This document shows positions 36,801 through 54,951 of a stretch of 64,000 nucleotides of DNA, one piece after another. How positions within the stretch are numbered: the first letter of the stretch is position 1; each line of letters opens with the position of its first letter. A program made the translations under genes and the position numbers. Source of the DNA: Nemopilema nomurai (Eukaryota; Cnidaria; Scyphozoa; Rhizostomeae; Rhizostomatidae); the NCBI GenBank assembly GCA_003864495.1, contig ML133471.1, positions 3,966,257 through 4,030,256 on the forward strand, written 5' to 3'. Below the pieces are notes generated by a model, which was given only the letters and a program-made list of their open reading frames with translations, did no database searches and had not been told where the DNA came from.

Positions 36801-39800
36801 ATTGCCGAATCTCACGAAACAGTCACAAATTTTCGTGAAACAATTACAAACAATCCATGAAAAGAAGCAGATGCACAGCAAAATTTGAAAAAGAAAAAAT
36901 TACCGTCTAGTCAAACACCTTAAAAATTCATCAACTAAATAAAACAAAGGACAATATGTCGAGAATGGAAGTGAGCGGAAGTTTGTGCCATTCCGTTGCA
37001 GCCAGAATCAGCCTGAATGATTTCATACGCAATGCCTGCCAGCACGGGGTCAATCAGTCTTCTACAGACAGAATCTGTCCATAGTGGACAGAATCAGTCT
37101 ATGGGAAGCGGAAATTTCTCAACCCAGCCTTGAGCTTTCATTTCATACGCAATGCCTGCCAGCACGGGGTCAATCAGTCTTCTACAGACAGAATCTGTCC
37201 ATAGTGGACAGAATCAGTCTATGGGAAGCGGGAAATTTCTCAACCAGCCTTGAGCTTTCATTTTATACGCAATGCCTGCCAGCATGGGGTCAATCAGTCT
37301 TCTACAGACAGAATCTGTCGATAGTGGACAGAATCAGTCTATGGGAAGCGGGAAATTTCTCAACCAGCCTTGAGCTTTCATTTCATACGCAATGCCTGCC
37401 AGCACGGGGTCAATCAGTCTTCTACAGACAGAATTTGTCCATAGTGGACAGAATCAGTCTATGGGAAGCGGGAAATTTCTCAACCAGCCTTGAGCTTTCA
37501 TTTCATACGCAATGCCTGCCAGCAGGGGGTCAATCAGTCTTCTACAGACAGAATCTGTCCATAGTGGACAGAATCAGTCCATGATAAGCGGGAAATTTCT
37601 CAACCAGCCTTGAGCTTTCATTTCATACGCAATGCCTGCCAGCATGGGGTCAATCAGTCTTCTACAGACAGAATCTGTCCATAGTGGACAGAATCAGTCT
37701 ATGGGAAGCGGGAAATTTCTCAACCAGCCTTGAGCTTTGGTTTCATACGCAATACAAACCTTTTGCATTGCGTAATTTTTCTCATTACAAATATGTTTAA
37801 AAACAGGCTGTGCGTCGAAAAATGCTAAATGTTTTAGACACTAAAATAAAGTGTTGATTTTATTTATCACTATTAATGTCTCTATCAATTTGTGACGTAA
37901 AGTTTTGGTGCAAATAGATATCCCCTTTTTTCGTCTTAGAAGAAAATAGGTATCCCTGTTTAATACCGTGTGCCTCTCTGGCCGGCCCCCGCCCCGATTA
38001 TGTAATTAAAAAAGATAAAGCGTGTTTTTAATGCAAGAAACTATTAAGTATACCCCCAATCATTGTCAAAGTGAACTACCTTTCCTATAGAACAGCGTGG
38101 CAAAGAGGAAGTAGCCTGGCTTTCTTTCCGACTTTCCGAGAAAGAGAAGCTTTCTTCAGTGACATGCGATATTTTTAGCAAAGTTGAGAGTTAATGCGAA
38201 ACCCCCTTCCAAAACAGCTGGAAATGAGACTTCTGATTACTCCTGGTATTTCTTACAAGAAACCATGTTCCCGACCCGCTTTCATTAGATATTGTAAACC
38301 GGGTCGACGTGTGTTTTGAATAAATTTAATGCTTGGCGGTCCCTTTCTTTCGAACGGTTGAAATATAAAGTTTTAACAATTGAATTTCATTTGTATTTTG
38401 CCGTGTGAGCCTTTCTGCTATCTTTGGGGTTCCATGGTTAATGATTATGAGATCAAAGAATGATTTATTTTGTGCATTTGTAATAGTTTGAAACAATGAC
38501 TGAGAGGCAGCGCTAGCGGTGGAATACAGGTCTATTGTGTAGCGTGCACTGTTTTGAATCCTTCAGACCACATGGGGAGTAAATGCATGTAGAAATCCTT
38601 GTGCAAATAAATCTTGACAACTAAACAAGGTGTTAACGTGTAATTCTGATACCTATGGCGGCTTTATGATGGCAATGAGAAACTCTAACCTGATTGGCTA
38701 ATATACCATATTCTGTCCATGAGGTTCTGTCTATGAAATGAACAGACAGATTCTGTCTGTGTCCGCATTGCAAATAACAACTACGCATTACAAATGCACC
38801 CTGTTCTGTTTGTCTGATTGTTTCAACATCCTATTTCAAAATGATTTCTTTTTATGTGTATGACAATCAAAACACATGCTGCAAATTAATTTGTTAGAGG
38901 CAAAAGCTGAGAAATAATAACATTTCTCTCTATTGGTAGCCAGAACAACTGTTCGTTTGCGATGATTCAGGGAACATTGTTGAAAGTCCTGACCCAAGGT
39001 ATTGTATTTGTACCTGCTAAAGCAATGTGTCAACATATCTATGGTTGATAATATCTTGAATGTATTTTAACAATTCTCTTTTTATAGTTCTTTTGTTATC
39101 CTAAATTTCTACAAAAAGAATCCGCCAGAGCAGGACTTGAACTCACAACCCTTAACTTTGTACGCCAAGTGCTCTACTGCTGAGCTATTGGGTCATGCTT
39201 TCAAGCCAGCACTTAAGGCCAAGCCATTTATCTGCACTGCCCCTCTTATTAACCAATTGCACAGGGGAGCCATTGCAATGTGCAGAGGCTGCCCACACCA
39301 GGAGGTTTCTGCACATGAAATTTAAGAGTTTTTCCTCTTATTTCGTTTAGCTTGGGGATGAAATTGAGCTCATGTGCACCATTGTTCATGCTTGCTCACA
39401 AGTACAGAGGTATGGAAATCTGTGGTCCCATATTTTTGAAAATGTTCAATATGATGATCCAGTACTCTGAGGTTTTTACCTTGCTTTTATTAATCCAAAA
39501 TTTCAACCCTGCTTTCTAGAAGCACAGGTTAAAAAGGTGGTTAGTGAATTTGAGACTGAAACTATTCAGAAAATGTTTTCCCTTTTAATTGAAATGTTGT
39601 GATCTCTTCTCCATTTGGAAGTTTATGTTATTTTGATAAATTTTTGTCAGGTGCCAATGCATCAATACATACACATTCAAAGGCAGCATTTATGGCATCT
39701 GTTGTATTTCCTGGTAAGGAGATCAAATTGACACATATGCAGCTAATAAGAGGAATCACGAATGACAAAACAGGGAAAAATTATGGGTATGCAATTACTG

Positions 39801-43721: not shown

Positions 43722-45461
43722 ATGCTTTTCGCAAAGTTCTCTGTTTTCTGTTTTGGATTGGTTTGTTTTTTGCCACTGAGTATCGGCGGCGGGATGCAGC
43801 GATCAGCTTTGAACCAAACGATGGGAGGAGAAGCCGTTTGCAGCGATGGCACTAAACCAGTTTATTACATCGAAAGAACAAATTCTCGGAAATGGATCAT
43901 ATTTTTAGAAAGTGGTGGGGGATGTTTCGATTACGGCTCTTGTCTGCGAAGAAAAACCGCAGAACCGTATCTATTTGGCGCTGCGTTGTACCCGCAAGAG
44001 ATAACCGGAGAAGACATTTTATCCTCCTCAGATCGTAGCAATCTGTTTCGCCGCTACAATAAAGTGCTTGTACCGTATTGCAGCAGTGACATGTGGCTTG
44101 GAAATAGGACTATCGTTTTTCAAAGTATGGAAGGGAAGACGCTGCGGGTAGCGTTTCGCGGTGCTGCGATTTTCCGCGCGGTCATCGACCACCTAGATGC
44201 ATATGGACTGGTGAACGCAAGCGAAATCTGGCTGGCAGGCAGTAGTGCTGGCGGCATTGGCGTTCTGAATCATGCGGAGTTTATCAGCCGAAATTATAAA
44301 GCGAAGATGTTCGCATTGACCGACTCATCATGGTTTGTTAATTATCAAAATATGCTGGCTCATGAAGGCATGAAAAGATTCATTGCTGAAGTGAGCACGG
44401 TCCAGGGATGTTATGATACGAGTTTGCAGTATCCGTGCTGTCTGTCGATATTCTGTATGGTTTCGAAGCGGTATTTCCCGCGCGGTGTTCAACTTTTCAA
44501 CATTTTGAGCCGCTATGACATATACAGTTTGTCGAAAGGCATTATATTTTCGGGAAAGCTAACCAGCTTTGAGAGAACAAGCAAAATCGTTTCGGACATG
44601 CTGGCTTTCGGCGGCGAAATCTCCCATTCATTGCGCGTAACCAGTTCAATGCCAAACGTGCACTCCATAATAGCTTCCTGCATCCAGCATACATTTTTGG
44701 CTACGAGCTCTTTGTGGTCTCCCGGCGGCCTTTTCAATTCGCGCGTCGAGACGTCATTCAAATTCCCCTTGTTTGTTTTTCGTCATTCTGTGAGGAAAGG
44801 AAGGTGGAACAAAGTGATCGTCAAAGGAAAAACCATTAACAAAATACTTCAGAACTGGTATGAAGCCTCCATTGTCTCGGGGGAGCTGCAAACACGCAAT
44901 GGGAGTGACCTGTCAAGAAAAGGACCCTCCATGTTATCGGATTCATGCCAACGAGTTCAGTGCAACCCCACTTGCCCGAAATCGATCGAATTTTACTCCG
45001 AAGAAAGCCCATGGCCTAAATGGGGTCAATGGTTGCTCTTAATGCTATACCTCCTATTCACCCTTATTTGCGTAGCAGTAAAAGTTTTTTGGTTGGTGCA
45101 GCGAATAAGACAAAATCGCATCCAGAACCAGTTCATAGATTCTCTTTATAATAATTCGACTGCTTTAAAAGCAGTAGGACTGCCTTGTTGTATTCCATCA
45201 AACTACATTGGCCTTTCGTGCATGGACGTTGAGTATTCAGTAACTATTGAGGGAAATAAAAGGCACTTGCACGAGGGGAAGAAGCTTTGCTGGGGTATTA
45301 GGGGTGAGCAAGAAGGTGGGAAAGAGCGAAGACAGATATTGAAGGGAATAAACGCTTACTTTAACCCTGGACAACTGGTGGCCATTATGGGTCCTTCGGG
45401 GAGTGGAAAGACAACATTGCTAGACATTTTGACTGGCAGGAAGGATTCGAAGGAGTCAAAA
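43722..45461 (+). CDS. Fusion exon 1: signal peptide, Notum-like hydrolase, membrane segment, Walker A
   Basis: One uninterrupted 580-codon exon contains both halves of the fusion. The hydrolase part has the nucleophile motif GSSAGG (Ser175), an Asp in SRYDIYS (Asp266) and a His in ASCIQHTF (His323), in the order and spacing of the Notum Ser-Asp-His triad, plus PYCSSDMW and a C-terminal CNPTCP that match Notum (PYCSSDVW, CNPSCP). The Trp of the Notum GGWYC loop is replaced by Gly (ESGGGCF). A hydrophobic stretch ([20 protein letters not shown]) follows, then the ABCG start and Walker [10 protein letters not shown] (557-565). Confidence 0.95.
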
Positions 45462-48400
45462 GTATGTACTTCTTTGCAAATTTTATCATACTTTATTTGA
45501 AGTGGTGGGACTTCAATTTACCCTTATCGTATTTCGGCTGTCGAGCACCTTTTGAAGTTTCGGTAAGATCAGAAAGTCTCAAAGGGTAAGATCAAAAATG
45601 CAAATAACTGGACGTTCTTTTTCATCCTGCCTCGTTTGGGCATTCTCTAGGACGAGAAAATGATTGCGCTTTGTAATACTTCTGGAGAATTACATTGTGC
45701 TATCGGACTTCTATCGGGAAAAGGGTTGTGATCTTATAACAACAATATGTTGCTGTAAGATCTTCGAAAATTAACCATTTAAATTTACGGCAAACCATCA
45801 ACTGAGAAATTACTGCCCTTGTATGGCTCTTCTTTAAGAAACACTTGGTCTTGTCGTGACCTGGAAACGAATGTAATCATTCTGACGTCAGCATGTACAG
45901 TCAGGCCCAATCCCATAGCAACTGATTGCTCAATTTCATGGGGTACTAGATATTATGGAACTAAAAATATGTGAATGTTTGAGTACCAACGATATGAGGC
46001 TGCCCAATCATATGTCCTATCACATGCAATTAAGATGTACGAACTCCATAAAATGACGTCATTCTGATTCGTACATCCGTCTGTACGGCAGGTTTTCATA
46101 AACGGCTTGAGCAACAGCGAAACACGCGAGTGGTTTAAAAGCAACAGTGGCTATGTGATGCAGTTGGCGACCCCGTACTACGAGGAGCTGACTGTTAGGG
46201 AGAACCTGTCTTTCAGTGCTTTGATGAGGCTTCCAAAGACCATGTCAGCAAAAAGCAGGATGATGAGAGTGGAGCAAGTTCTAGGGCAGGTGAGGTCTGC
46301 AGCAGAGAGGAAGGGGGACCCCTGGCCGTCACATTTGATAATGTGTAGTTTATGGGGTCTGCCTTTTGGTAGTTTCCTATAAGTGCTTCTAACATAAATC
46401 AATTGGGGATTTTGACCGATAATAAGCCTATGCACATTGAATGCAGTAATTACATAACGTATCACTGCATACAGCGTGAATTGGATTTGTTCTATGCAAA
46501 ACAATTTTTAAGAATAAGTAACAAGCATTGAGCTGATATCATTTATCCGGGGATAGTATGATGTTTTTTCCATTTGATTTCCAAGTAAACAGGTCCATTC
46601 GCAGCAACGTTGAGCTTCAAAGCAGTTTCAGAAATGTTCATAAATTTTTAACTGTGCTTGCCTTGCAAAGCTAAATCGAGTATTCATTTTGCCTGAAACC
46701 TTTCTCTGTAGACTGGGCTCAATGACTACGCGGATGTTGTTGTTGGGAGTGCCGTGGGGCCTGGGCTGAGCGGAGGACAGGTATGTTTGTTGTTTATTCG
46801 CGGGAATTTTAACCTGACGTTAGGTCTTAAAGTGGCGTCTTTTGTTGCCAGTTGATAGCCGTAATGTGAGTAAAGCCGCCAAGAAATAATACTGTTGAAG
46901 CAGGTGCCCTGCGAAATCTGAAGCAGATGAGTCAATTAAACCAGCTTTAAATCTTATCTGAGCGTGAATACAAGCTTCCTTCTCCATTTGGGCGTTGTTT
47001 GCTCCGTAACGTTGTAAAGTTTGCTGACGAAAACATCCTTGCTTTATTATGACACTGTTTTCTGTCCAGGTTCTGGTTTGCCATTTTCAGCAGCTGTAAA
47101 TGAAAACGTCTTGTTTCCAGGACTGTTACTCTCGCTGCAGATGCATCATATCTTTTCATTGTCAATTATTCATAATCCAGACATCTTTCTTTAAATGTAT
47201 CGTTCTGTAATCCTAAGCGAGTTGTTTCAAGCAATCCTTTTCCAATATGACAACTTTATCCTAACCTAAAACTTAATTGCGTTCTGCAGGCATATCTGCG
47301 GGAAACCCTCGCCATGTCCTGCATTTTCACTTCATATATAGAGTATTATTACGACGATTTTTGTCTTTTCGCAGAAACGCCGTCTTTGTGTGGCGGTGCA
47401 GCTCTTAAGAGTTCCAAGTGTCCTCTTTCTGGACGAGCCAACTTCAGGTTTGCAATCGATGTTATCTTGTCGGTTATCTACATTCTAATTGAACTTAGGC
47501 CCAAACCCTTCCAATGCATGATTTTTGCGAACACGTTTTGGTTCTCATCCGGTTTGCTGTAACCTCTGACGTCATTTATCGCTCTCCCCAGGCCTTGACT
47601 CCGCTTCTTCACTCGAGCTTCTTGAAACCCTGCACGGACTAACTCTCTCGGGCAGACTTGTTGTGCTAACCATACATCAACCTCGAATCGAGATCTTCCA
47701 CATGTTTGACCGAATTTTATTCCTCTCTGGAGGCCATGTAAGTATTAATTTGCTTGGAACATTTTACTGATATAATCATTCACTGATAAAGATAAGAATT
47801 GTTGCCGTATGCCATGCTACCCCTAATGAGTACCCTCTCTCACATGAAGTCTTTCCTCTGTTAAGCTCACTCAATGACCTTTTTCTCATATTGAATTTTT
47901 TCCTTTAATCAGTGCTATATCAGTTTCCCAAAATCTACTTAAATCTACTAAATCATATATATAAGTTAAATTATATTATTTGAAAAACCTACCATTCCTG
48001 ATAATCTTTTCTTTTTACTTGCTAATGATGATTACCGTAATCTCGCCTTCCACCAGCAGATCAATTTCGGTGCTCTACTTAAGTTCACCTTTCTTCGGGT
48101 TTTTGTCTATTTTCAGTTGTTTCTGTGCGTTTCTTGAGATCTTCAATGCAAGTGGTCATCAAATGAGAAATATCCAAAAAACGTTTTATCTATTAGGTAG
48201 CCTATTACGGCTCACCGATAATGGCACCGACAATGATCGCCGAAGCCTTGAAAAGTTCAGGAGAGGTACGATTATATTGCAACTGTTGTCTTGTCCTTTT
48301 TTGTCGGAAGCATTTGTAGATATTTGCTCTTCTGAAGTCTGATCTGAAATTAAATTAAAGATAATGTAAGAAAATGTTTTGAAATGTCTTTGGAACGATT

Positions 48401-51400
48401 GAAATGTTTAAGATTCGAAGTCAATTTGCTTATTGTTTTAATGACCTTTTTTAGGGAATGTTTACTTCCTCATCCATTTCGTCTGCCAGGTGTAAACTCT
48501 ATGTTTGATAGAACGCTGATAAAATTGTAAAGCAAACTTTCAAATTTAGCTTTGCTTATTTCACAATTTAAGGTGCTCTAGAGACTTATTTGAAGCGATT
48601 GCTTTCTAGGCTTTGGACGCATCAAATCCAGCCGACACCATTATGGATGTCCTCGTTTTCAAGAAATCACAGGAAATGATTGTAGAGCATTACCAAGAGA
48701 GTGGCGAAATAGAGGCCATCAAAAAGGCTGTACTCAAGGCAACGAGAAACCCCGTCAAAACACTGAGCATGAAAGTTAAACGGTAATGTTTTGCCACTGA
48801 CCTTTACCAGTCAGCTTAGGCATGTCCGGGGGGCGCTGTAGATGTTATTGGATTGCCTTTGTTGGTGATTCACTGAGCTGCTAGATGTTTACTTGAAAAC
48901 TTCCCTAGCTATTTATATTATGTCATTTCTTGGTTTAAATTTACTTTTCTGCAAGCTGAAACCGCGAGGGTAGCAGTAAGACAAGTAAATAGGGTCGTAA
49001 TTAATGCGACAGTCCAAAACCAATTTCAAAGCTCCCTAAAGAATTTTATGGAATCTAAGAAATCTAAAAAGGTCCCTAAGAAATCTAAAAAGATCCCTAT
49101 AGAATCTAACAAGGTCCCTAAGGAATCTTAAAAGGTCCCTAAGGAATCTAACAAGGTCTTTAACTTCAATTTCTAGGTACTCGTCGAGTCTCTCCGACCG
49201 CTTGCTTGCATTTGACTGTCGCTCTTCCAAGTGCCAAACAGTGGCACAGAAGCTGTACTTGCTCATTATCTTCTTGTTATACGGCCTTGCTTTGGGTGAG
49301 TTGACGTCATATTTATATATAGGCTACGTGATTGATGCTTGTATGTTGCATTTTCTCACACGCTCTGCTACAACACGGAGCACCATTTGGTTCTCATTTG
49401 CCTGTTTCTGATCAAAGTGTCCTGTTACGGATAGGAAAGAGGCTGTTTCAGATAGGATCTGGGCTACAGAAGTTGGTAGAAAATTCCTGGAAACACTTTA
49501 AAGACTAACCAGTTTTCCTGAACAAATGCTCATTCGAACAATACTTCTTTATGTTTAGGTCGATTTGATTTTTGGCAATTGCCTTCACGGCAAGGTCAAG
49601 CCTTCCAATTTATCCAATTGGAAGGCCTGTAGTTAAGTTACATAACTGAGTTGGCATATTGTGACTGCTTCTTGACCATAGCCTAATCATTGCAAAATAC
49701 GGTGATTTGATTTCTTAAGGAGAGAATTGGGAACTTTTGTGTGTGTTCCCTTGCTTTGTTTTCTTTTGATTCAAATTTCCATTGGATATTCCCACTACTA
49801 AATCTGCGTAATAATAACAATGATAATCTATAATCTCAATAATGATAAAGCTCCAAACTTTGTTTACTTTCGTTCACTTTCCTGTCGTTACAACTTCCCC
49901 TTGGTTGCTTTCTCGTTCACAAGGACCCCCGGGGCTCATCGTTAGTTTATAACCGAGTACCATGGCAACTTTAATGCAATAAAGTGCCTCCAATAGGCGA
50001 TAAAACGAATGCCGTGCCTCTAAGTTTGTTATTTCTTGGCCACACAAGCTAAAAGCCGCCTTAATACCATATTTCCGTAAATAGGCCATTCGATAAATGA
50101 TAGGTTTTAATTTGAAAAGAATAAGCTAAGCTTTGTAATGTGATTTCGTCGATAGGATAATGATAGCGGTAACATGATTAGGGTCATCTGGAGCCATAAC
50201 TATCTACCTTCCCAAGGTCACGACCTCGGATCAATGCCTATTTTTGTGATGCACCATTTGATTAACCTGTGATTAGTTCGAATGATAAAGGAAGGTATGT
50301 GATTAACATGCCTGATTGGAATGTGATTAGCATTGTAGTGTGATTAGCATTGAAAACACGTCACTGTTGCTAGTTGCCACTCGACTCTTCTATTGGTCGA
50401 TGAGAGAACTCGTCGACTTTGTTTTCTGACAATTTCCAGTCAGGCATGCGAGGTTATCTGGAAATATGCAACAAATATAAACTAAGGTTTTTTTGTGAAC
50501 GATGAGGAAGTCACTTTACAATCTAGGTTCAGTCCGCTCAGAGATAGTACCCCTTTGATTATTATGTAAAATACAGGATTACATAATGAATACATATAGC
50601 TTTCGCTCGCAAAAGTGTAGATGGAGATTTGGACTTGGTATAAGAAAGCGCTTAACAGAGAGCTAAGAAAAGTGGCCCCTTGACTTTTTCGGGCGTATTA
50701 CCAAGGAGCTTCTGCAGGGGTGCGAATGGAATGGGGTTTTCAAGAGTACTGTTGCAAATATGAGTGTCCTAATTGAACTTTATTGAATATCATGACAAAA
50801 ACAGCTTTGCAGTAGGGAACAACTAATAAAAGTCATGAGGCAGTTTATTAGTTCACGTCCACATCAATCTTCATACAAAGTTGTTTATAAGACCATTTTC
50901 TTCTCTGTTTATCTTTATCACATCAGGTTCCAGGAAACATTTTTCACTCATTTCGCATTTTTAGACAAAGCAATGATGGCCTAGTTACGTACTTGAGCCC
51001 AAACACCAATGTATTCTTCCCTTTGTCAATATTCTTCATCTTGTGTATCAAGGCAATGAATATTACTTGTCCGCTTTTTGCAGTTTCATATGTACATGTT
51101 TAGCTTCTTCGTAGCTGCGTTTCGCTCTACTGAAGCATTTAGCTCGTCAGCTGAAAAGACGTTTTTTAATAATACAAGCCCCTGCAAAGACTGATCTAAG
51201 TTTATCAAGAAAGTTGTTATCATGATTATACCAGTGCCTCCATTTTCTTTGCAGGAAGCGTTTACTGGCAAACGGGCAGTGGCATACTACTCATGAGCTG
51301 CTACCAAGTATTCCTCTGCGCCAGCCAGCTCTTCATGGCATCGGTAATTCATTCCCACCTTGGCAAGGCCTTCCCCCTCTTTGCTCTTGAGCAAGCCGAG

Positions 51401-54400
51401 GGGGTTGGCAAGTCACGTGAACTTGTTCTTCACACCTTCATTCGCATTGCAGCAGTGACTGTCCTGCCTCTGCTCTTGAGCTGCGTCATCATCTACCTCT
51501 GCACGGTCGCTGAGCTTGACTTCTGGAAGTTCTTCGTCACCACTCTTATTCATCTGCAGCTGAATCACGTTTGGGTCGCCATCATTATGCTTTCAGCCAG
51601 CGCCGTCCCTCGCTATTCAACTCTCATTTGCCCAATGCTATCGGCAGTATCCGGATTCGCTGGTGGGTTCCTCGTCCCGGAACCAGAGATGCCGGGCTTT
51701 TACTACTGGCTTTTCTACATTAACCCAACCCACTGGGCCTACAGTGCCACCATGAAAATCCTCATCAATGACGTCATATTCGACTGCAGCAGTCAATCAA
51801 AGCTCGATTGTCAATCGAACATGGGTATTGCTGTCTTGCAACAATTTGGCTTCGAACGGGTGAATCCTTACCAAAACATGACCATTCTGTTTGCAATGGT
51901 GGTCATTTTTTTGGGCGCCACCATGGTCCTGCTTGAAGTTCGGCACAAGGATAAGTTAAGGAAATGGCTTGCAGCGATGAAGCGGTTGGTGCAAGCTGCC
52001 AGAATCAGGTAAGCAATAATCAGCCGATTGCGAATTGGTTTAAGTACGTTGTGATGTTGTTTTAGTCAGTGGCAACTATACTTTCACAGAAACTATGTTT
52101 TTAGAATATATCTTACTCTTATGCGTGTGATTTAATCGTGTTTTGCAAGCGACACAGAACACAATATTTGACAATCTGTAACAAATCTCAGACCTTGGTT
52201 GATACAAAAGCTCTATGATGGATAAATTTTAATTGAAAGGCCTACTTTCAAGCTTTGATAAATCTTAACAATAAACTTGATGCAGTTAGAGTTTGTGCTG
52301 ACTCGGACAAGGGATTAAAAGTTACTCTAAGGTTAAGCATTGGAGAGATAAGTTAGCCTCTTTGAAGCCTGAATGATTCATTCCTGTTGCTTAGTATGTG
52401 TTGCAAAGAAAATGCAAGTTGTTAGCGAAAAGCACTTAGAATATTCCGTTGAAGTGATAGGTTGAACTCAGTCAGTAAAAGAGCACAACATGCAGAGTTG
52501 AAATTTTCATTCATTTCTTTATCTTTGTCAATCAGAAAAAATAGTTACTGGAAAATCTCTTTTGCCATTTCATGCGCTGTAAGCTATACTTCTTTTGCTA
52601 GGTTTTCTGGTACGTTTAAAAAGAGAGAGCCGAAATCATCAGACAAGAAACGGCTAATTTACAGCAAGGACATCGAAGCAAATGGGAAATGTGTCAAAGA
52701 GACAACGTCTTTGCTGGTCAGTAGCTCCGACATGAGTAAAGGGCAGCCTACATCAAATAAGAAGCCCAAGGACGTAAATTCAGAATTACTTTCTTTAATG
52801 CTTCCTGTTGAAGTGGAACCAATGCTAACTGCAAGAGTTCAAATGAAGGAGCGGCCCAAGACAATATCAGTGTTTACGTCACCAGACACTGCGGAGGAGA
52901 AGCCAAGACGAGCCCCTGTTATGCGCTCAAGTAGCTTCACTTGCACAGATTGGCCGCTTAAAGCTAGGGAGTCACCGACGTCAGCCAGAAGGAGCCCAAA
53001 TACGTTGCAAGTGCCCGAGATTGCTATTGAAAACGTCTGTGAGGATGAACACCAGGTTCCGGCAAACCTAGGAAGAGACCGGTCGGACACATGTGAAACA
53101 GAACCAGACGCTTGCTTATCAAGGTATCTGGATACGATTTTGAAGTCGCACGAAGTCTATTGCTCCGTCTCCGGTGGCCGCCCGAAAAGCTCGCGTAGGC
53201 GCAGCGTCACAAAGCGGCTACCGGATGAGGTGAAGCGAAGTGAGAGCGTTCATATTCAACGGAAGGCTTCGATGCTGATTCTTGCAGAGAGGCGGAAAAG
53301 TATGACGGCGCAAATAACCGGATTCGGACATGCATTTACCTATTTGAATGAAGTAGGAATGGAACGGAAACCATCTGCTAGAAGGAACATGTCTGTTGGC
53401 GTCAAGCGGAAAGTAGAAATAAGGAAACAGCAAAGGAACTCTGACGGCTCGTTGAGGAACTCAGGTGGCTCTAATGAGCACCTCCAAATTCCTGATTCGT
53501 CACCAATCGTCGTTGTGTCTCCCGTTGAGATAAGGCGTTCTAGAATGTTGCATCAAATGGCGATAGATATTCCGGACGAAAATTCTAACATTTTAGTTGG
53601 AAAACAAGGAAATTCGCAATCGTATCAAGAAAGTTTGAGCTCCAATGTGAAGCTTTCTGGCGTAGATAAGGGCTCGGTTCAATCTACAGGGTATGGCAAT
53701 GAAAGTAGAACTAAAACTTCAAGAGACACTTCCCAGTCGAATCGAAAACCGTCCTCCCAACGCAGCTTGAGTGGGAAATCTGCAGAACCTATGAAGGTAT
53801 CTGCCCTGAAGATTTCCAGGAAAAAGTTCATTCCACTGAAAGATCACCCCGATGACTATGCCAGAGCTGCAGATAAATTTGACGCCGAATCGAGGTCATC
53901 GTTGTGCCGCACTCCGCTTGGGTCAATAGACGAGACCGAAGAAGACGAGGATTATCCAGTCGCTGACAATTTTGAGAGAAAGCCTTCACTGGGCCTTAGG
54001 CGGGGCTCCTTACAAAGAGCGCAGCAGCAACATCATTTTGGCGAGCACTTTGCTGAAATCGCAAATTGGTTACATCAAAGCGCACAAGTGTTGAACGAGG
54101 ATGACGAGTTATCGGATGAGAGCGATTCGTGCAAACCGTCTTCCGTAACGCCGCTAGCCGTAACTAGTAATTTACAACTTGGCATTGAGCCAGATGACAC
54201 GGATGAGGCGGAAATTGACGCGGAGATCGATGCGGAGATTTCCCGCGCCTTCGCGGAAGATAAGATTCTTATTGTAGCACCAACAACGGATGAATCGGTT
54301 GTATCTTCTGAAGGGCCTAAATCAAGTGATAGCGGCATTCGCTCGGGTGTAAGCGAGTACGATAAAACGGACGGCAAATTTAACGACCATTGTTTACGTA

Positions 54401-54951
54401 AGTGCACGGCTACTAATTCCAAGCCTGTTGCGGTTGCTCCTAGCGCTGCGGGGAATTTCATCGCAGTCCCAGCAATAGTGGTTTCAGCAAGTAGCCCGAG
54501 TCCAAGGTCATTTTCTAACGCATTGTTCTTGGAGAATGGCGGTACCAGTGACATCGAGCGGCACGGAGTGACTGCCAAACCGCATACCGCGTACACTACT
54601 GCAACGCCTAAAAACAATGTCTCGCTAGACGCAAAACATCTAGCGTGGGAAACTAGGTCGAACGACGAATTCTCCACTGACGTGTACGATCACGTTGGCA
54701 TCGGCGAAGAAACACCTGACGACATCGCTCTTGCGACTCCGACCTCCAACTCAAAACCAACACACATTCGTAGGTCGAGTAGCTGCGAGTTTGATTTTGA
54801 CGCTGCCGAGGCGACCGCTGACGTTGACATTGCTCGGATTCGGAGCCTTAGGAGGAAATGTAAAAAGCAGAAGATGGAATCGAAATCGGGACTTGAGACG
54901 AAGAGAAATGCAAGTGACGATTATGAAATACTAGGAGAAACGGTTTTATGA
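43722..54951 (+). CDS. Notum/pectin-acetylesterase-type hydrolase fused to an ABCG transporter with long C-terminal tail
   Basis: Ten exons with matching phases sum to 5691 bases: 1896 residues. Order: signal peptide (1-24), Notum/PAE hydrolase (about 35-425), membrane segment (437-459), ABCG nucleotide-binding domain (about 495-800), ABCG membrane domain (about 845-1100), disordered tail (1115-1896) ending ETVL. Exons: 43722-45461, 46092-46289, 46712-46780, 47375-47447, 47592-47737, 48197-48265, 48610-48782, 49177-49295, 51255-52008, 52602-54951. Predicted topology puts the hydrolase outside the cell and the ATPase inside. ABCG proteins export lipids and sterols as dimers; Notum removes a fatty acyl group from Wnt. 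A linked lipid hydrolysis/transport role is inference. The ATG at 43722 is favoured because it gives the signal peptide. Confidence 0.92.
46092..48782 (+). CDS. Fusion exons 2-7: rest of the ABCG nucleotide-binding domain
   Basis: Residues 581-822. All ATPase motifs are present: Q-loop glutamine (YVMQ, 604), signature LSGGQ followed by KRR across an intron (665-672), Walker [11 protein letters not shown] (685-694) and the switch histidine in TIHQPR (722). The VRENL and LSGGQKRR context is typical of the ABCG subfamily. No catalytic residue is missing, so ATPase activity is expected. Confidence 0.93.
49030..49160. repeat. About five 21-bp minisatellite units in the fusion-gene intron
   Basis: Tandem units of the form AAGGTCCCTAAGGAATCTAAA lie just before the acceptor of exon 8. 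They generate an open minus-strand frame of repeated RFLRDL, which is a repeat artefact. Confidence 0.8.
49177..52008 (+). CDS. Fusion exons 8-9: ABCG transmembrane domain
   Basis: Residues 823-1114. Hydrophobic segments include [15 protein letters not shown] (split by the intron), the region after [27 protein letters not shown], the [12 protein letters not shown] region, and [19 protein letters not shown] near the end. [13 protein letters not shown] matches the conserved ABCG F.xNPxxWxY region, followed by a short extracellular Cys-containing loop. Exon 9 ends AG|GTAAGC; the unspliced reading meets a stop inside this donor. Confidence 0.92.
52602..54951 (+). CDS. Fusion exon 10: 782-residue disordered tail with PDZ ligand
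   Basis: Starts at a good acceptor (TTCTTTTGCTAG) and completes the Arg codon split by exon 9, in the same frame. It is rich in Ser, Lys, Glu and Asp with many basic-Ser patches (RRSSS, RKPS types) that look like kinase sites, a repeated EIDAEID unit, and no hydrophobic segment. The last four residues ETVL form a class I PDZ-binding motif. Human-type ABCG proteins end soon after the last membrane segment, so this tail is unusual. An ATG at 52462 opens the same frame upstream, so a separate gene cannot be fully excluded. Confidence 0.82.

Follow-up and report, generated by a model that had tools for sequence, protein, structure and literature searches.

A predicted Notum-fold esterase-ABCG transporter fusion in the jellyfish Nemopilema nomurai and its non-bilaterian relatives

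Introduction

ABCG half-transporters (ABCG1, ABCG2, ABCG5/G8 and plant ABCG25) begin, to our knowledge, with the ATPase, which is followed by the membrane domain. Plants also have ABCGs in which a cysteine-rich N-terminal part and a helix are present (ABCG24/28). A hydrolase and an exporter share a single chain in the peptidase-containing ABC transporters (PCATs), where a cytosolic C39 peptidase is joined to an ABCB-like exporter, and these provide a precedent for cutting and exporting by one protein. Notum of human and fly is a free enzyme with neither a membrane helix nor an ABC part, and passages of one article describe it as acting without a transporter (PMC8172013). Two Notum genes have been recorded in Clytia, and the excerpted part of that report mentions neither ‘ABC transporter’ nor ‘ATP-binding’ (PMC4169000).

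Here we describe a gene of the jellyfish Nemopilema nomurai in which a Notum-fold esterase domain, a membrane helix and an ABCG transporter are predicted to form one protein. It lies in a 64,000-nucleotide stretch of contig ML133471.1 (assembly GCA_003864495.1, forward-strand positions 3,966,257 to 4,030,256), hereafter the window, in whose coordinates all positions are given. A sequence-only reading of this DNA knew of no described protein with this order of parts. As far as publications are concerned this stands: no description of a Notum/PAE-ABC fusion was found in the open-access PMC literature among the matches listed, a scope that leaves most subscription papers and bioRxiv preprints outside. 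It does not stand for sequence databases, where many proteins carry the order unrecognised.

Results and Discussion

Gene model and domain order

Exon 1 (43722-45461) is a single stop-free open frame of 580 codons, which survived in none of 2000 base shuffles of that stretch (Table 1); an artefact within this exon is excluded by the open frame. The one frame carries PF03283 (PAE) at aa 34-333 (E 3.7e-41; 141.9 bits against a curated Pfam cut-off of 26.6) and the start of PF00005 (ABC_tran) at aa 540-576 (E 1.2e-8), which bears out the initial claim of an unbroken run from a signal peptide through a Notum/PAE domain and a membrane helix into Walker A. Exons 2-9 are our own model, located by tblastn searches that used the related proteins P0066 (Bolinopsis) and P0030 (Stylophora), with borders set by AG/GT; all eight are preceded by AG and followed by GT, and exons 1-9 join into 1113 stop-free codons. 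In the joined ATPase and membrane part (614 aa), PF00005 falls at aa 40-193 (E 1.2e-28) and PF01061 at aa 352-532 (E 9.4e-12), so the later exons do complete both domains in phase, as had been proposed.

Table 1. Features of the predicted gene, in window coordinates.
Feature	Position	Strand	Evidence or remark
Exon 1	43722..45461	+	Open frame, 1740 bases, donor GTATGT
Signal peptide, aa 1-22, boundary approximate	43722..43787	+	Hydrophobic aa 1-19; helix 2-15 in structure model
Pectinacetylesterase/Notum-fold hydrolase domain, aa 34-423, end approximate	43821..44990	+	
Nucleophile motif GSSAGG	44238..44255	+	Catalytic Ser175 at 44244-44246
Catalytic acid Asp266 (Notum Asp340)	44517..44519	+	Invariant in 54/54 rows; aligned with Athalia Notum
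Catalytic His323 (Notum His389)	44688..44690	+	Invariant in 54/54 rows; aligned with Athalia Notum SCISH
Membrane helix between enzyme and ATPase, aa 438-456	45033..45089	+	Strong hydrophobicity; helix 433-477 in structure model
Walker A, aa 557-565	45390..45416	+	In exon 1
Exon 2, Q-loop GYVMQ	46092..46289	+	AG/GT borders; tblastn with P0066 and P0030
Exon 3, signature GLSGGQ at 46763-46780	46712..46780	+	AG/GT borders, tblastn
Exon 4, with Walker motif	47375..47447	+	AG/GT borders, tblastn
Exon 5, D-loop and LTIHQPR switch at 47666-47686	47592..47737	+	AG/GT borders, tblastn
Exon 6	48197..48265	+	AG/GT borders, tblastn
Exon 7	48610..48782	+	AG/GT borders, tblastn
Exon 8, membrane domain begins	49177..49295	+	AG/GT borders, tblastn, hydropathy
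Exon 9, remainder of ABC2 membrane domain, including CSSQSKLDC at 51785-51811	51255..52008	+	PF01061
Alternative stop if last intron is retained, 1114-aa form	52010..52012	+	
Tail exon, ~782 aa, Ser/Arg/Lys-rich, probably cytosolic	52602..54951	+	In-frame junction from 52008, open frame; tail homologous to P0122

A nine- or ten-exon gene model can thus be read directly from the DNA, predicting one protein with a signal peptide, a Notum-fold serine esterase, a single membrane helix, an ABCG ATPase, an ABC2 membrane domain and, most likely, a long tail that is basic and Ser-rich. That this predicted architecture is genuine and conserved is the claim we make with greatest confidence, close to certainty. 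The order of the parts is consistent with the suggested topology, in which the enzyme would lie outside and the ATPase inside.

The esterase domain and its relationship to Notum

The N-terminal domain has the alpha/beta-hydrolase fold of Notum, and its triad of Ser175, Asp266 and His323 is invariant in all 54 proteins of an alignment chosen by hand from 136. Loss of the triad was considered and rejected: pairwise alignments to human Notum fell short of the Asp and His region, and both residues are seen to be kept in Athalia Notum and in the 54-row alignment. Six of the best 120 of 307 matches to exon 1, five of them with a Walker A, lack the strict nucleophile pattern G[STC]SAG. A signal-peptide proxy (19-residue hydropathy within residues 1-60) picked out only 10 of 68 proteins; this count lends no support to a signal peptide, and it is to be read with the facts that the 19-residue span exceeds the signal-peptide core and that some frames start late. 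We consider the domain to be probably an active esterase.

The domain has the Notum chassis, yet in sequence terms it is not Notum, because the same genome holds a separate Notum gene (on C22, with WWNAN, QWIYD and SCLGH), the fused domains form a clade of their own, and Trp128 and the Notum signature motifs are absent from them. A tree built from 31 PAE domains separated the 20 fused-type rows as one clade (100/99) from the four Notum sequences, namely those of human, fly, sawfly and the present genome (100/99), and from a third clade made up of two other PAE genes of Nemopilema (100/100). The fused-type rows include two models without Walker A (P0069, P0030) and five open frames that end shortly past it (P0002, P0010, P0011, P0014, P0018); L004 and nine of 15 prokaryote loci (L002, L007-L012, L014, L015) were left out of the tree. 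A sister pairing of Notum with the fused clade is absent from the best tree and is not rejected (p-AU 0.257). The plant-like pectinacetylesterases of this genome (C110, C106/C162) have PF03283 in common with the fused protein but fall in a separate clade and have no ABC part in their own open frames.

Notum is distinguished by Trp128, WWNAN (WHNAN in fly) and QWxFDEAQ, all absent from the fused domains; that WWNAN/QWxFD may serve as Notum markers is our own reading of aligned Notum sequences. Motifs of the WWNAN/QWxFD type occurred in one of 155 proteins scanned, the sawfly Notum (P0152). Gly takes the place of Trp128 in 116 of the 124 proteins that match the pattern, out of 137 scanned. Since the Notum clade is distinct and Trp128 and the signature motifs are replaced or absent, a palmitoleate pocket cannot be assumed for the fused domain. 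On these results and the separate Notum gene, the link to Wnt lipid handling that the sequence-only reading had thought possible is not supported.

The transporter half

The transporter fits the ABCG half-transporters, with which it shares the Pfam families, the order of one ATPase then one membrane domain, IHQPR and, as predicted from the model, two cysteines before the last helix (CSSQSKLDC). It differs from them in its first ~500 residues, which hold the esterase and helix, and probably in a long tail after the membrane domain. Walker A, signature, Walker B and the IHQP switch are all intact, and hydropathy gives five distinct segments above cut-off in the membrane domain, six being expected for an ABCG half-transporter. 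The best single-domain match is ABCG2 (161.7 bits, versus 132 bits for Pdr5/CDR1), and a Foldseek search with the P0066 model ranked ABCG25, ABCG2 and ABCG5 first. We consider it likely to be an active transporter, and membership of the ABCG family would imply dimeric, ATP-driven transport.

An origin from full-size ABCGs (PDR) was also considered and rejected; CDR1/Pdr5 had the top total score only as a sum over two domains, and per domain ABCG2 scored better. PDR proteins have two ATPase and two membrane domains, and here there is one of each. In a separate observation, the rows returned by VIA-align contained only Notum, one domain filling them, while Foldseek put ABCG first.

Another gene of this genome bears on the claim that known animal ABCGs begin directly with the ATPase, which is not supported as a general rule. 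In this ABCG-like gene (L025), 124 open-frame residues with 13 Cys stand ahead of a helix, which is followed by ATPase and membrane domain. The layout of the fused gene (N-terminal part, helix, ATPase, membrane domain) therefore has a precedent in L025, although the N-terminal part of the latter is Cys-rich with no hydrolase seen, and its ATPase is just 37% identical to that of the fused protein. What is new here is that the N-terminal part of an ABCG is apparently an active hydrolase. PCATs likewise have hydrolase and exporter in one chain, but their C39 peptidase is cytosolic and attached to an ABCB-like exporter, whereas here an alpha/beta-hydrolase would lie across the membrane from an ABCG ATPase; no Pfam match to a C39 peptidase was found in the fused protein, the N-terminal domain being PF03283.

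Ending of the gene and the C-terminal tail

The sequence-only reading had the gene end at 52008. This position is the end of exon 9, at a good donor (CAG|GTAAGC), but it is not necessarily the end of the protein. Left unspliced, the frame meets a stop one residue on (1114 aa); spliced to 52602 (TTTTGCTAG|G), it stays open to 54951 and gives 1896 aa in total. The tail so added is homologous to that of P0122 (1860 aa), the nearest full-length relative among the matches listed (35% over 552 columns, E 1e-54), and the alignment crosses the 52008|52602 junction, though weakly right there. In the other 16 long relatives no tail match was found at E <= 1, even though these also extend 309-805 residues beyond the GFAGGF motif, where that motif was found. 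The 1896-aa form is therefore likelier here than the 1114-aa form, and the tail is, by this comparison, fast-evolving. No Pfam family matched the tail, which is 13% Ser and 15% Lys+Arg and has 24 RxxS/T sites in 791 residues (a raw count). Hydropathy marks one hydrophobic stretch, aa 1723-1741, inside this supposedly cytosolic part.

Relatives and distribution

A search with exon 1 returned 307 proteins at E <= 0.001, the best 120 of which were analysed. A Walker A pattern was present in 68 of these 120, behind a strict G[STC]SAG in 63 cases; in every one of the 68, a TM-like segment lies after the catalytic His and ahead of Walker A. The other 52, which could be first exons or free enzymes, mostly measure 338-447 aa. 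When the 1114-aa model served as query, 23 proteins were found at E <= 1e-100 (a cut of our choice), and 13 of the 23 combine PF03283, PF00005 and PF01061 in a single chain; those of the 13 with a named source come from a coral and sponges. The search for the same domain order in other animals that had been proposed at the outset thus recovered it in metazoan relatives, and the Nemopilema gene is not a lone case. A profile built from 11 members found 30 proteins among the 7998 candidates sharing most words and added P0137 and P0138; absence from its results means little, since it missed seven of its own 11 members (P0122, P0123, P0125, P0126, P0127, P0135, P0136).

Esterase and ATPase occur in one protein in the corals Oculina patagonica and Porites evermanni, in the sponges Corticium candelabrum, Oscarella lobularis and Oopsacas minuta, and in the comb jelly Bolinopsis microptera; the ‘scpid’ identifiers (P0135, P0138) presumably denote the sponge Sycon. 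Several models are partial: that of Porites lacks signature and Walker B, that of Bolinopsis (988 aa) stops within the membrane domain, P0069 (539 aa) stops before Walker A, and Stylophora P0030, labelled ‘Protein notum-like’, combines the esterase with fragments of the ATPase and pieces of the membrane domain, Walker A being absent from the model. The source name of P0126 reads as a complete ORF from one assembled transcript. Wherever a listed match has both domains and a named organism, that organism is non-bilaterian; most listed matches carry no such name. Among at least eight PF03283 matches in the Nemopilema genome, judged on the translations of L016, L017, L020 and L023, no second fused-type gene was recognised.

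The full order is kept in corals and sponges and the esterase-ATPase join also in a comb jelly, a distribution which suggests that the protein is old in animals. This would be a case of an animal ABC transporter with an extracellular hydrolase of its own, retained by three early lineages of animals. Database names over the fusion include ‘Protein notum-like’, ‘ABC transporter G family member 22’ and ‘hypothetical protein’, and coral and sponge ‘notum-like’ genes in Wnt surveys may be this esterase-ABCG protein instead.

Proposed activity and alternatives

In the mechanism that we propose, the signal peptide would place the esterase outside the cell or in an organelle lumen, and the helix would bring the chain back, leaving ATPase and tail in the cytosol. 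Like other ABCG half-transporters the protein would form a dimer, with two esterases above one transport path. Driven by ATP, the transporter would carry an amphipathic ester (such as an acylated or acetylated lipid or a sterol ester) outward, to be cleaved by the esterase as it emerges, so that export would be one-way and an altered product released; the RxxS sites of the tail offer a possible place for kinase control. Animal ABCGs move sterols, phospholipids and amphipaths, and since the enzyme belongs to an acyl/acetyl-esterase family, an acylated lipid or lipid-modified molecule is our best guess for the substrate.

That the two activities serve one substrate, in the export direction, we put at slightly less than an even chance. 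The complete proposal is more tentative and, taken as a whole, somewhat doubtful: an esterase-exporter of early-animal origin, lost in bilaterians, in which an acylated lipid or lipid-modified signal would be released by ATP-driven transport, coupled to its deacylation at the surface, and the cytosolic tail would be regulated. If true, sponges, comb jellies and cnidarians would possess a transport-and-cut step absent from every studied bilaterian model. The protein would also offer a defined way to study the coupling of lipid export with ester cleavage.

The main rival is a tethered ectoenzyme, the esterase working alone on esters at the cell surface or outside the cell, the transporter being a separate activity or a mere anchor. 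Conservation relative to P0124 is unequal, the N-terminal part being 32% and the ATPase and membrane part 45% identical, and the halves are parted by a single helix and a linker (aa 512-531, between helix and ATPase) that is of low confidence in the structure model; Notum itself, in the passages cited above, acts without a transporter (PMC8172013). We nevertheless think this rather unlikely, as the pair has been kept together across three old animal lineages and the intact ABC motifs exceed the needs of an anchor. In another reading the protein would be an exporter whose ectodomain serves in substrate binding or gating and does not catalyse. Binding ectodomains are known from ABC transporters, and Trp128 of the Notum oxyanion hole is replaced as described above; the invariant Ser175, Asp266 and His323 are unneeded for a binding domain and make this reading improbable. 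Slightly less probable again is hydrolysis followed by import, in which the esterase would free a product outside and the transporter would flip it inward. It agrees with an enzyme placed on the outer face, and ABCG importers are known from plants, but those animal ABCGs whose direction we know of are exporters.

A membrane-bound Wnt deacylase, Notum by function, would be very improbable given the separate Notum gene, the distinct clade, the replaced Trp128 and the near absence of WWNAN/QWxFD from the proteins scanned. Least probable is a gene-model artefact, two adjacent genes having been read as one: although exons 2-9 rest on our own predicted model, hydrolase and Walker A lie within one 1740-base exon, and relatives carry all parts in one protein, one of them as an apparently complete single-transcript ORF.

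Related genes in the Nemopilema nomurai genome

In the ABCG-like gene L025, a Cys-rich N-terminal part is followed by a membrane helix and then by the ATPase, an arrangement that matches the order of parts in the fused gene; no hydrolase was seen in L025. A multi-exon Notum gene, distinct from the fused gene and carrying the Notum signature motifs, was matched as L023/L024. Further pectinacetylesterase (PAE) matches included a single-exon gene of the plant-like type (L016; 426 aa frame) and two loci with identical PAE scores, L017 and L018, each lying in a long single frame (887 and 896 aa, respectively), which are possibly haplotype copies of each other. L017 has an N-terminal hydrophobic stretch, as judged by eye, and a long insert within the hydrolase domain.

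Locations of related loci (genome G000) and of tandem repeats (window)
Feature	Location	Strand
L023/L024, Notum	C22:154500-164400	minus
L016, PAE	C110:181515-182534	minus
L017, PAE	C106:43354-44331	
L018, PAE	C162:89876-90853	
L025, ABCG-like	C19:8058754-8059353	minus
120-bp tandem array	37020-37753	
21-bp tandem repeat	49055-49158	

Distant relatives and tandem repeats

Distant similarity to the transporter half was found in two 970-aa database proteins with an ATPase and an ABC2 membrane domain, P0150 (source name, Ignavibacteriaceae MAG) and P0151. The 120-bp array comprises 6.1 copies that are 96% alike, with one frame open over part of it (187 codons), and the 21-bp repeat (5 copies) lies within intron 7 of the fused gene.
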